A stretch of 64,000 nt of DNA from Lentisphaerota bacterium (GTDB lineage Bacteria > Verrucomicrobiota > Lentisphaeria > Victivallales > UBA1829), in contig SUVR01000001.1 in the NCBI GenBank assembly GCA_015061915.1, forward strand, positions 71,976 through 135,975. The letters run 5' to 3'. The notes under the pieces were generated by a model. That model did no database searches and was not told the origin of the DNA. It was given only the letters and a program-made list of their open reading frames with translations. Positions 3,184 through 8,342 of this stretch are shown here, one piece after another. The number at the start of each line of letters is the position of its first letter. Within the stretch, counting starts at the first letter, position 1. The position numbers and the translations under genes were made by a program.

Positions 3184-3203
3184 TTTCCTTTTTCAAAAAA
3201 TCA

Positions 3204-3252
3204 CCGGGATCGCAGACACACTTTCCACGTCCGCGATCCCGGATTTTGTTTT
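3204..3252 (+). terminator. Intrinsic terminator after the DUF4886 gene
   Basis: Perfect 10-bp inverted repeat CCGGGATCGC / GCGATCCCGG (3204-3213 and 3233-3242) followed by ATTTTGTTTT. It ends the transcription unit just before the base composition turns A/T-rich. Confidence 0.85.
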
Positions 3253-3432
3253 AAGGAAAAAGAGGCTGAAGAACACTGTTCTTATTTTTACAAAAAAACA
3301 TGGAGATCACTTGAATTATTAAATATTGATGATATTTTATTACAAAATTTCTGCAAATGGATGCAGAATGTAACTAAAGGATGCAATAATAAAAAATAAC
3401 TGAATAAAAATTGGCAAGCTGATTGTAAACGT

Positions 3433-3585
3433 CCTAACTGAACTACCACTTCATAATTGACGTACAGCAACATATCTTTATAGTCGGAGTGACCATGCAA
3501 ACTGCATGGCACATTTCGATTTAGTGTATGTTGCAACGCTGTGGTAGGCGTAGTTAGGGCACTTCTTCGGAATGTGCCTTTTTTT
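3433..3585 (+). ncRNA. Candidate structured RNA with its own terminator
   Basis: The stretch folds as one rod. CCTAACT (3433-3439) pairs with AGTTAGG (3552-3558); CTACCAC (3443-3449) with GTGGTAG (3541-3547); GCAACATA (3467-3474) with TATGTTGC (3527-3534); and GTG-A-CCATGCA (3489-3499) with TGCATGG-CAC (3503-3512), closed by an AAC loop. An asymmetric internal loop (17 against 6 bases) separates the second and third stems. An intrinsic terminator follows at once (GGCAC..TTCG..GTGCC, then seven T, 3558-3585). The nested perfect stems are seen in the sequence. Whether it is a free small RNA or the leader of the Sel1-repeat gene at 3720 is open. It has the general rod-and-bubble shape of 6S RNA but is shorter, and I do not identify it as such. 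Confidence 0.6.
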
Positions 3586-3719
3586 ATGCAAAAAAACAAA
3601 AAGGAGAAAATTACAAACTCGACTTAAAAAATTAAAGGCTTAAAACCGAGAATTAGTTACCAATCATAACAAGTTGCAATTCTCAAAACTTAGAAACTGC
3701 AAACAGAAGGAAAAAGAAA

Positions 3720-4421
3720 ATGAAAAAAAACATTTCACGTGTGGTCATTGTTTTATGGCTGTTAATCTATGGTGGGCTTTGCGGAGCACAGGAAACTTTG
3801 CAATTCCAACAAATGAAACGAAAGGCACAACAGGGTGATGCAGAAGCGCAATATACGCTTGGCTTATTTTATTCGAATGGCAAGCAGGGTGCAACACAAG
3901 ATCATAAAATCGCAGCCGTATGGTATCGTAAAGCTGCGGAACAAGGACATGATGATGCACAATTTTTGCTGAGTTTGATGTATTTTGAAGGCATAGGGGT
4001 GAAACAAAACAATGATGAAGCAGTAAGATGGTGCCGCAAAGCCGCGGAGCAAAAACATGCTGGTGCACAACGCAAAATTGGAGAGTGCTACGCTCAAGGT
4101 ATTGGCGTTATCCAAGATCCAGTAGAGGCAGTAAGATGGTTCCGTAAAGCTGCAGCGCAAGGAGATGCAGAAGCACAATATCATTTGGGGTGCTCCTACT
4201 TTCAAGGTATAGGAGTCACCAAAAATACAACAGAGGCAGTAAGATGGTTCCATAAAGCAGCAGAACAAGGAATTGCTGATGCACAAAGTATACTCGGCGT
4301 ATGCTACATGGCGGGATTTGGTATTTCTAAAGATTGGCAAAAAGCTGAATATTGGCTACGAAAAGCGGCAAGTCAAGGACAGCGTGGAGCAATTGATTTG
4401 CTACGAAAATATTTCAATTAA
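3720..4421 (+). CDS. Secreted Sel1-repeat protein
   Basis: A 233-residue protein with a signal peptide (hydrophobic IVLWLLIYGGLCGA, cleavage near residue 22) followed by five Sel1-like repeats of about 36 residues, each with the signature AQ..LG..Y..G.GV....EAVRW.RKAAEQG. Sel1 repeats are alpha-solenoid scaffolds for protein-protein contacts in the periplasm or outside the cell; no enzyme motif is present. The gene is visibly richer in A/T than the surrounding genes and uses codons such as GCA, GAA, CAA and TTT, suggesting acquisition from another genome or an islet under relaxed composition. GAAGGAAAAAGAAA precedes the start. It sits between a terminated structured RNA and another repeat-built secreted protein. 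Confidence 0.85.
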   Translation: MKKNISRVVIVLWLLIYGGLCGAQETLQFQQMKRKAQQGDAEAQYTLGLFYSNGKQGATQDHKIAAVWYRKAAEQGHDDAQFLLSLMYFEGIGVKQNNDEAVRWCRKAAEQKHAGAQRKIGECYAQGIGVIQDPVEAVRWFRKAAAQGDAEAQYHLGCSYFQGIGVTKNTTEAVRWFHKAAEQGIADAQSILGVCYMAGFGISKDWQKAEYWLRKAASQGQRGAIDLLRKYFN

Positions 4422-4510: not shown

Positions 4511-4984
4511 ATGAAATCTACTTTAACACTCTTTTTTATTATGGTTACTGGACTTGTTGCTGCTCAAACAACAAATTATTACAACAGTAACGGCACATCT
4601 GCCGGCTGGTCAACAACAACCCGAGTCGGCAACACTATCACCACCAACCATTACAATGCAAATGGCACATCTGCCGGCTGGTCAACAACAACCCGAGTCG
4701 GCAACACCACCACTACTAACCATTATAACAGTAATGGGTCTTCCGCCGGCTGGTCATCATCCAATAGAATCGGTAACAGCACCACCACGAACCATTATAA
4801 TAGTAATGGGTCTTCCGCAGGTTGGTCATCATCCAGCAGAATCGGTAATACGATCAACACCAATCATTATAACAGCAAGGGAACTTCCGCAGGTTGGTCA
4901 TCATCCAGCAGAATCGGTAATACGATCAACACCAATCATTATAACAGCAAGGGAACTTCTGCTGGTTGGTCAAATACACGCTAA
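4511..4984 (+). CDS. Secreted protein of six 24-residue tandem repeats
   Basis: From the ATG at 4511 (GGGGAAAA is 10 bases upstream) a signal peptide MKSTLTLFFIMVTGLVAAQ is followed by almost nothing but repeats. Each unit reads roughly TNHYNSNGxSAGWSxSxRIGN plus three residues; there are five full copies and one short copy. At DNA level the period is 72 bp and the last two full units are almost identical, so the array has expanded recently. Exported proteins of G-N-T/Y-D-x-N-G type repeats occur in many Gram-negative bacteria without an assigned role; a beta-solenoid or filament is plausible for the N/S/T/G-rich units. An in-frame ATG at 4454 would add 19 non-signal residues and is unlikely to be used. 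The gene shares the low G/C of its neighbour. Confidence 0.75.
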   Translation: MKSTLTLFFIMVTGLVAAQTTNYYNSNGTSAGWSTTTRVGNTITTNHYNANGTSAGWSTTTRVGNTTTTNHYNSNGSSAGWSSSNRIGNSTTTNHYNSNGSSAGWSSSSRIGNTINTNHYNSKGTSAGWSSSSRIGNTINTNHYNSKGTSAGWSNTR

Positions 4985-6693: not shown

Positions 6694-7173
6694 TCAGCGG
6701 CTGCCGAGATGGCGGCGCGCATCCAGATCATCCTGACGTTTTTTCAATGTTTCGCGTTTATCACCGAAGGTCTTGCCCCTCGCAACACCCAGTTCCAGTT
6801 TGACCCGTCCCCGTTTCAGATACATCTTCAAAGGAATCAGCGAAAAGCCTTTCTCCCGTACCCGCTGGAACAGCTTGAGGATCTCTTTCTTGTGCATAAG
6901 CAGTTTCCTGCGCCGCACCGCCTCGTGGTTGAACCGGTTACCATGGGAATAGGGAGAAATATGCAGCCCGAAGACGAAAAGTTCCCCGTTTTCCACACGG
7001 GCAAAGGTGTCCTGCAGCTGCACAGAGCGCATCCGGCAGCTCTTGACTTCGGTACCACGCAGTTCGATCCCGGTTTCCATACTTTCCAGGATCTCAAAAT
7101 CGTGATACGCCTTCTTGTTCCGTGCGATCACATCATTGTCCGCGCAGGCGGTGTTTTCGTCTTTTTTCGCCAT
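6694..7173 (-). CDS. smpB: SsrA-binding protein SmpB
   Basis: A 159-residue protein matching SmpB along its length: NKKAYHDFEILE near residue 20, the central G.EL.GTEVKS.R block, the beta-barrel segment LFVFGLHISPYSHGN, and the basic tail ending in KKRQDDLDARRHL. SmpB binds tmRNA and delivers it to stalled ribosomes for trans-translation. The lysine/arginine-rich C-terminal tail, which occupies the empty mRNA channel, is intact. It starts 2 bases after the dnaJ stop in the same operon, so chaperones and ribosome rescue are coexpressed here. No tmRNA gene is visible in the window. Confidence 0.95.
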   Translation of the reverse strand: MAKKDENTACADNDVIARNKKAYHDFEILESMETGIELRGTEVKSCRMRSVQLQDTFARVENGELFVFGLHISPYSHGNRFNHEAVRRRKLLMHKKEILKLFQRVREKGFSLIPLKMYLKRGRVKLELGVARGKTFGDKRETLKKRQDDLDARRHLGSR

Positions 7174-7175
7174 GA

Positions 7176-8342
7176 TCAGTTTTCCATAAATCGTGCAGCC
7201 TTTTTGCGGAAATTTTCCTGTAAAGGCTGATTGTTCTCTTTCAGATCCAACGCTTCCAGCGCCGCTTTCTGACGGCTGTCCAGCTTGACCGGGATCTCCA
7301 CCTGGATCTTGACCAGCTGATCGCCCCGTTTGCCGCCTTTGAGTGCCGGCATCCCTTTTCCGGGGATCCGCAGGAGAGTGCCGTTCTGCGTGCCGGGTGC
7401 GATCTTCATACGGGTCTTTCCGGTCATGGTCGGCACATCCACGATCCCGCCGAGGATGGCAGTGGTCAGGGGGATGGGCAGATCACAGAGGATCGTTTCT
7501 TTATCCCGTTTGAATACATCATGTTCTGCAACGGTGATGACAACATAAAGGTTGCCCTGTGCGCCGCCGTTGATTCCTGCATCGCCGCCGCCGGGAACTC
7601 GCAGTTTGGAACCGGTATCCACGCCGGGCGGAATGTTGATCTGGATCTCTTTCTCCACGCGGACTCTGCCGCTGCCGCTGCAATGTTTGCAGGGGTTGGT
7701 AATGACTTTCCCGGTGCCGCCGCACTGCGGACATTGTCCCGGTGCCTGGAAAAAGCCCTGATTCATCATGACCTGACCGGAACCGTGACAGTTGGGGCAG
7801 GTCTGGGGCTGCGAACCGGGCGCCGCACCGCTGCCGCCGCATTCGGGACAGTGATCATTCTTGCGGATCCGCATTTTTTTTGTTGTGCCGAGCAGGGCGT
7901 CTTCCAGTGTAATGGTCACATTGACCGTGGCGTCCTGTCCGTTCTGTGCGTGGCTGCGGGCTCTTCCGCCGCCCCGACCGCCGAGGATGTCTTCAAAGGA
8001 GAAACCGCCCCCTGCGCCGCCGCCGAAGAACTGGCTGAAAATATCCCGCGGGTCACTGAACCCGGAGAATCCGCCGGCACCGCCTGCGCCGCCGTATGGA
8101 TTGCGTCCGCCGCCGCCTTTTTCAAAGAAATCGGCACCGAACTGGTCGTACTGCGCCCGTTTTTCTTTATCGCTCAGCACTTCGTATGCCTGCGAGACAG
8201 CCTTGAACTTTTCCTCCGCCTCCTTGTTGCCCGGATTTTTGTCCGGGTGGTACTTGACGGCGAGCTTGCGGTATGCTTTTTTGATTTCATCCGCAGAGGC
8301 GTTTTTCGCCACGCCAAGAGTCTGATAATAATCTTTTGCCAT
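7176..8342 (-). CDS. dnaJ: Chaperone DnaJ
   Basis: A 388-residue type I J-protein. The J domain (residues 1-70) has the HPD triad at 32-34. A Gly/Phe-rich linker (about 75-125, unusually glycine-rich, [12 protein letters not shown]) follows. Then come four CxxCxGxG zinc motifs ([32 protein letters not shown]) between about 155 and 215, and the C-terminal substrate-binding beta domains. DnaJ presents unfolded clients to DnaK and stimulates its ATPase. dnaK is not in the window. It lies between grpE (36-base gap) and smpB (2-base gap). Confidence 0.97.

Follow-up and report, generated by a model that had tools for sequence, protein, structure and literature searches.

Directly upstream of a Sel1-repeat gene, the 64,000-nucleotide stretch of Lentisphaerota DNA analysed here (the window) carries a segment, positions 3433-3585, that reads as a long rod-like RNA with a terminator at its end. 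Two questions arise: whether a structured RNA is really encoded there and, if so, whether it stands alone or acts on the gene behind it. The fold of 3433-3585 (+) has an MFE of -59.8 kcal/mol, against a mean of -34.1 for shuffled sequences (z = -7.67; 0/200 shuffles as good), and the reverse strand gives a weaker fold (z -4.9). When 3418-3585 (+) is folded, the result is the rod, then the terminator. The initial annotation had described four nested stems of 7, 7, 8 and 10 bp in a single rod with an internal loop, followed by a TTCG-capped terminator. The rod and its loop are present, as is the terminator hairpin at 3558-3578 with seven T behind it, and the four stems are essentially P1 to P4 of the list below; P3 has 9 bp in the MFE structure, however, and a further helix, P5, had gone unnamed. 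Two other features had been missed entirely, the pseudoknot P0 and the long-range pairing A-T. The features of the window copy, from 5' to 3', are these:

3313-3340 (+), weak candidate promoter TTGAAT-16-TATTTT, an 8/12 match; not called by the scan tool
3376-3381 (+), SD-like AAAGGA without a start codon at usable distance; from the sequence and a family-wide peak
3429-3433 (+), P0 pseudoknot, 5' strand ACGUC, pairing with 3459-3463; from covariation and the partner-swap test
3434-3440 (+), P1, 5' strand, pairing with 3551-3557; from MFE and covariation
3443-3449 (+), P2, 5' strand CUACCAC, pairing with 3541-3547
3459-3463 (+), P0 pseudoknot, 3' strand GACGU; from covariation and the partner-swap test
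3467-3475 (+), P3, 5' strand, pairing with 3526-3534; from MFE, sequence variable among copies
3482-3491 (+), P4, 5' strand, pairing with 3512-3521; from MFE, the apical stem covarying in the distant set
3493-3509 (+), P5, apical hairpin (3493-3498/3504-3509); from MFE
3508-3519 (+), A strand, the apical 3' strand, complementary to T
3526-3534 (+), P3, 3' strand; from MFE
3541-3547 (+), P2, 3' strand GUGGUAG, with a conserved GCGU directly after it
3551-3557 (+), P1, 3' strand, whose end, with the linker, is also the terminator 5' arm in most copies
3558-3585 (+), local terminator hairpin (3558-3578), UUCG-capped, and seven T (3579-3585); from MFE
3567-3578 (+), T strand, the terminator 3' arm, complementary to A
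3600-3606 (+), SD-like AAAGGAG near the usual gene-start distance, no start codon after it; from the sequence
3720-4421 (+), Sel1-repeat protein gene, 233 aa, Pfam Sel1 E 7.4e-57, with an apparent signal peptide by eye

In the window copy the A-T complementarity spans 12 bp (3508-3519/3567-3578), and the predicted rod, A-T pairing and terminator are all good. A mechanical terminator scan does not list the 3558-3578 hairpin, probably because base 3573 is bulged; on the forward strand it calls nothing but a terminator-like site downstream of the preceding gene, at 3229-3244.

A 6S-like regulator had been one of the first suggestions for this RNA, together with an Rfam covariance search (6S, SRP, tmRNA and leader families). 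That search gave no match at gathering for the window RNA. At E<=10 the region 3200-3800 returned ten matches, irrelevant chance ones with no 6S family among them, and cmscan of 13 related loci found one tRNA only. An RF00013 search of the bacterium's own genome found no match; the same search matches in 6/14 control genomes. 6S RNA is a stand-alone gene present in one or two copies. The RNA described here shares with it the shape of a rod with internal loops, but a single genome can carry as many as 13 copies, the majority of copies are coupled to a gene in the same orientation, and the P0 and A-T pairings are present; the 6S assignment was rejected. Blastn of the window RNA against phage and plasmid records gave no match. 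No description of the RNA was found in the literature on structured RNAs of Lentisphaerae, Victivallales and Verrucomicrobiota (preprints and most subscription papers lay outside the scope), and a search of PMC11109978 and PMC8632094 for the clade names found none. The one motif found there under a name and listed for Lentisphaerae was Acido-Lenti-1 (RF01687), which PMC2864571 gives as not cis-regulatory; cmscan gives no match of our RNA to RF01687. Judged by sequence, we are dealing with an unnamed, widely distributed RNA family without a match in Rfam 15.

The genome itself holds a second copy on another contig. It is 68% identical to the first, and its stems differ in sequence yet pair, so that it folds identically through compensatory changes; a third copy is weaker, at 31.5 bits. 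A covariance model of two copies gave 21 full-length matches in 12/36 genomes of the taxonomic family. With a 21-sequence model, matches were found in 15/36 genomes of that family, 60/137 of the order, 63/197 of the class and 51/387 drawn across the phylum. A model from 15 distant matches raised the last figure to 143/387 (71/197 genera), a count that takes weaker matches by score, without one-by-one reading. The E-values of these models are rough, and the copy counts, such as the 13 per genome in the order, are lower bounds because few candidates per genome were scored (20 for the order, 14 for the class, 7 and 7 for the phylum). NCBI places Victivallales in Lentisphaerota; GTDB places the order in Verrucomicrobiota. 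Six genomes of other phyla, used as a negative control, gave 0 matches with model R3 at E<=0.01. Among the pattern-scan hits, those outside Lentisphaeria (6/36) were discarded: five had no match to model R2, and the sixth (L134) had a partial one and reached 19.9 bits (E 0.014) in one further model search. Since R3 finds none at E<=0.01 in those genomes, all six are taken as chance.

Conserved pairing in relatives, proposed at the outset as a check, is indeed found: diverged copies keep the helices through compensatory changes, which puts the structure far beyond chance. The RNA is almost certainly real and conserved. Four predicted helices, P0, P1, P2 and P4, are supported by covariation, P0 being a pseudoknot. 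A-T is a second long-range helix, usually of 10-13 bp, from the apical strand of the rod to the terminator 3' arm. In alignment A7 (81 order-level rows), 99.5% of cells are paired in P1, 99.1% in P2 and 96.7% in A-T, with the counts for P1, P2 and the apical stem leaning towards those helices because the models to which A6, A7 and A12 were fitted contain them; P0 and A-T are in no model. Across P1, P2 and A-T, 22/24 pairs change on both sides somewhere in A7, including 7/7 in P1 and 8/10 in A-T, and slid versions of A-T pair in 30-66%. P2 shows double changes on A7 and A12 despite its strong sequence conservation. On A6, 97.8% of A-T cells are paired.

The distant alignment, A12 (75 rows), tells a similar story, with paired cells at 89.6% for P0, 97.5% for P1, 99.8% for P2 and 94.6% for P4. 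All five P0 pairs have two-sided changes there, a number that 28/500 shuffles reach for P0 alone. A-T is paired in 89.3% of cells on A12, against 73.5% for the best slid version, the nearest that any slid control came. In the tests of these alignments 0/500 shuffles were as good in the share of paired cells, in cells with two-sided change or in the covariation score, while on A12 the number of A-T pairs with two-sided changes (162/500 shuffles as high) and of further pair types (264/500) was not above shuffles. A partner-swap test on 139 copies, comparing each strand's own partner with those of other copies, gave 14.3 against 11.6 for P0, 17.1 against 4.4 for P1, 17.2 against 8.3 for P2 and 26.2 against 20.5 for A-T. 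The A strand with its rod partner, ungapped and at order level, scored 14.0 against 13.0 with other copies, only a small partner-specific excess. A6 and A7 left out matches of 125 nt or less, as well as opposite-strand matches that overlapped better ones or were judged chance (L080-, L107-, L047-, L086+ and L134+). This left 164 matches with 145 distinct sequences, of which 139 could be parsed for helices and tail (the parser required at least five T) and 137 entered the three-strand test; the distant set used 75 distinct of 78 rows. Several distant copies (L234-L246) have an extra stem 5' of P0, such as GATGCGTCAACGCATAC, and further upstream of it a recurring ACATAG(C/T); both are absent from the window copy.

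These pairings compete for the same strands. A is used twice, in the apical stem and in A-T, and T is used twice, in A-T and in the local hairpin. The initial annotation had noted that terminator and outer stem overlap at 3558, and C3433 can indeed pair with G3558, the first base of the terminator stem. It had also guessed that the two compete, which fits the family at large, where the local hairpin needs P1 bases in most copies: its mean is -8.1 kcal/mol with four P1 bases and -4.3 without them, against -3.7 for shuffled sequences (n = 139). In the window copy it reaches -9.9 kcal/mol with the four bases. The A-T duplex averages -16.3 kcal/mol. The linker from P1 to T is 7-9 nt long in 98/139 copies, and A lies 21-23 nt (interquartile) from P2, a fixed spacing which suggests that P1, P2 and A-T can coexist in one compact fold. 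A pure run of at least six U is present in 126/139 order-level copies; that all 139 have at least five is uninformative because the parser demanded five or more T. In the distant set, runs of at least four and at least five U occur in 67/75 and 56/75 copies. The predicted structures, an intrinsic terminator among them, are mutually exclusive, as is characteristic of attenuators.

How the family is placed relative to genes bears on what such a switch would control. The dominant downstream ORF lies on the same strand in 102/118 copies with sequence enough for the test, on the opposite strand in 7, and 9 have no ORF of 80 aa; the upstream control gave 27, 16 and 11, respectively. An SD+ATG ORF of at least 35 aa follows 111/145 copies at a median gap of 34 nt after the U-run, although the ORF picker, which takes the longest SD+ATG frame, is biased to finding a gene, and the strand-orientation count serves as its control. 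Of the SD+ATG ORFs of at least 60 aa, 78/108 begin less than 50 nt after the U-run. At that distance a separate promoter would hardly fit in front of most of these genes, which are therefore most likely reached by readthrough. In the distant set such ORFs (SD+ATG, 60 aa or more) follow 52/75 copies, at a median gap of 51 nt. We conclude that the RNA is very probably a cis leader. The earlier suggestion of a leader controlling the Sel1-repeat gene was thus right in kind, as a leader of a downstream gene is the most likely role, but too narrow: the same RNA precedes dozens of gene families.

Upstream of the rod there are further signals. In 125 non-redundant order-level copies (125/134 upstream regions kept after near-duplicate removal), the best sigma70-like -10 elements cluster about 80-120 nt upstream of P1. 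Only this positional peak is distinctive, as the promoter score threshold is reached by 111/125 copies and by 223/375 mononucleotide shuffles. For the window, the scan tool reports instead a 10/12 promoter match inside the rod (3457-3484), and its number of matches is no higher than in shuffles. SD-like cores peak 50-70 nt upstream of P1, with 203/425 matches falling in 2/20 bins (125 copies). This sharply positioned SD-like AAAGGAGG block without a start codon is possibly a STAB-SD or a standby site. The STAB-SD of cry3A mRNA is likewise an SD-like block that lacks a following start codon and lies close to the presumed 5' end; the block of the leader family differs in preceding a structured switch, and its stabilising role is putative.

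The window copy departs from the family in its gap, as about 135 nt separate the U-run from the start of the Sel1 gene, against the family median of 34 nt. With an AAAGGAG at 3600-3606 that lacks a start codon and the Sel1 gene only at 3720, the gene that originally followed may have been lost here. Immediately after the Sel1 gene, 4578-4972 is a 72-base tandem repeat in 5.5 copies, which encodes a repeat protein that seems to have a signal peptide (NHYNSNGTSAGWSSSSRIGNT...) and has no Pfam match.

The genes behind the RNA belong to dozens of unrelated families of phage-defence, cell-surface and other accessory functions. They were scanned as groups of 78 order-level proteins (many close relatives and short ORFs having been left out) and 60 distant-set proteins, and the families named here come from the 25 most frequent of 47, 65, 75 and 39. 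At order level, zinc-ribbon, ankyrin and Sel1 proteins form one blast cluster of 32, followed by SNase nucleases (17), a cluster of 14 in which EcoRI-type methylases and sulfatases occur together, and two clusters of unknown proteins (11 and 8). Singles or pairs include a UDP-glucose dehydrogenase, an epimerase, an acyltransferase, an FkbM methyltransferase, GmrSD, an N6 methylase and Nmad3. EcoRI-type methylases (4/60) are among the families listed for the distant set, together with SNF2/PLD helicases, a type ISP enzyme, N6_N4 methylases, Nmad3, glycosyltransferases, BspA-type LRR proteins and a TSP3-repeat group. PADLOC matches listed for the distant set include type II/III methylases, type IIG enzymes, and DISARM- and BREX-type helicases. 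The recurrence of EcoRI methylase and Nmad3 behind the RNA in distant genomes suggests either that RNA and gene spread laterally together or that there is a real functional link.

Taken as a whole, the scheme we favour, by a modest degree of confidence, is a 5' leader that acts as a transcription attenuator, P1 and A-T forming the ON state and the local hairpin the OFF state. The leader would be some 240 nt long and would comprise, in order, the promoter, the SD-like purine block, an A-rich stretch, the rod P1-P5 tied back by P0, the terminator with its U-run, and the gene. Transcription from the upstream promoter would run through the rod. Were the pseudoknotted fold (P0, P1 and A-T) stabilised, A would hold T and the end of P1 would stay paired; with T so held, the terminator hairpin, made of the P1 end and the linker with T, would be blocked, and polymerase would read through into the gene. 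Were it not stabilised, T would pair locally, P1 would fray at its base, and transcription would stop at the U-run with release of a short RNA. Stabilisation could come from a small molecule, in which case the leader would be a riboswitch, or from a shared protein that recognises P2, a region of strong conservation. Against the polarity of this scheme, the U-run directly follows A-T as well, so that A-T might serve as the terminator stem. Moreover, the window copy's local hairpin might always win, and its Sel1 gene is distant. For a metabolite riboswitch, downstream genes that share no pathway would be unusual.

Several other readings compete with the attenuator. The breadth of clients would suit a processive antitermination RNA of the put/EAR kind, which binds RNA polymerase and makes it ignore downstream terminators, the U-run being the first one met: such an RNA works on unrelated genes and needs no common ligand, and surface-polysaccharide and defence genes are among the clients here. 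EAR, too, is a pseudoknotted leader RNA, according to PMC2864571. One NusG N-terminal domain each was found in G077 (which carries 11 RNA copies), G079, G083, G097 and the bacterium's own genome; with a single such domain even in RNA-rich genomes like G077 and G097, there is no RfaH/LoaP paralogue to account for the RNA, and a NusG paralogue as trans factor is not supported. We nevertheless hold this reading to be unlikely, as no locus tested has an EAR/epsC (RF01735) match in Rfam, many clients are short single genes, and an A-T helix that ends at the U-run and competes with P1 points to a local switch. The pure U-run that ends most copies, the several copies per genome and the A and T sequences common to many of them could also belong to a small RNA acting in trans, with A or T as the strand that pairs to other transcripts and with a 3' end that lies before accessory genes by chance. 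The tight same-strand coupling to genes and the short gaps, with little room for a separate promoter, make this improbable, as does the covariation of A with T inside each copy.

Regulation at the level of translation is a third possibility: by way of an element D located downstream of the U-run, T would free or hide the site where ribosomes bind. In some copies D, a GGUGCAUUUC-like sequence, pairs with T and with the GGAG region before the ATG. The D score, however, is reached by 34/106 copies against 16/106 shuffled ones, and D is not seen in the window copy; as a general rule the element was rejected, being confined to a subset of copies, and a translational switch is very unlikely for the family. 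Finally, the element might be a recombination or cassette site, integron attC-like or from another mobile unit, that has been read as RNA. Copies do lie on one strand a few hundred to about 1400 nt apart, some of them as clearly repeated RNA-plus-gene units, with truncated gene copies in the arrays and diverse cargo. Integron attC sites carry R and L boxes, RYYYAAC/GTTRRRY. No conserved ends of this form are present and P1 sequences vary freely; the element lies 5' of its gene, whereas attC sits 3' of the cassette gene; and promoter-like, SD-like and U-run signals make sense only for an RNA. In three genomes of genus g8 the RNA is kept at one locus and the gene next to it is the same, a pattern that resembles vertical inheritance. 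A cassette site is, on this evidence, highly improbable.

Among described systems, the attenuator scheme finds its nearest parallels in pseudoknotted leaders. The ZTP, fluoride and preQ1-I riboswitches are pseudoknotted and transcription-attenuating. In them, as is proposed for our leader, a pseudoknotted domain holds a strand that the terminator needs, and a U-run and a gene follow; the leader family differs in its long rod with two long-range pairings and in having no Rfam match, and its clients share no pathway. EAR/epsC (RF01735) resembles it as a pseudoknotted 5' leader with polysaccharide genes among its clients, and differs from it greatly in phylogenetic range and clients; our family also lacks an Rfam match and ends in its own U-run.

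Relatives of the RNA also occur in phages. Of 50 IMG/VR loci found by pattern, 4 match model R2, and the other 46 were set aside as chance. The four are Bacteroidota-like phage contigs (L268, L254, L255 and L257) with divergent relatives that have a promoter, P0, P1, P2, A-T and a U-run; the promoter motif is of the Bacteroidota type. All four copies precede one conserved gene (161-176 aa), the L268 copy lying at 6786-7479, and neither Pfam nor PHROG gives a match for the protein of L268. A tail tape measure-related protein is close by on one of the four contigs. Blastn of the Bacteroidota phage RNA copy among phages found no match, and none for its gene either. Tentatively, and with considerable doubt, one could extend the attenuator to a phylum-wide RNA sensor, laterally shared and present in Bacteroidota phages as well, which would keep anti-phage and surface genes silent until a signal stabilises the double-pseudoknot fold; examples of such a signal would be a nucleotide linked to infection or stress, or an altered transcription machinery. 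If true, this would amount to a common RNA switch for defence and the accessory genome. We know of no described regulatory RNA for the control of defence and surface genes in Lentisphaeria and relatives, and the family offers an entry to it. With one RNA, many unrelated clients and several copies per cell, it also offers a clear hunt for a ligand or protein.

Several arrangements of RNA copies were seen along the way. In L100, 3645-4744 is a near-exact tandem duplication whose unit of about 923 bp is one RNA copy plus its gene. In arrays of L036, L102, L103, L104 and L106, what looks like a truncated gene start sits between one RNA copy and the next, possibly through decay or reshuffling of leader-gene units. 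Near RNA copies in L102 (7924-8109 and 10037-10234) and L105 (3161-3352), spurious ORFs have in common a peptide with the ending SMFSTEP or SIFSTEP, a sign that those genomes contain another short DNA repeat.
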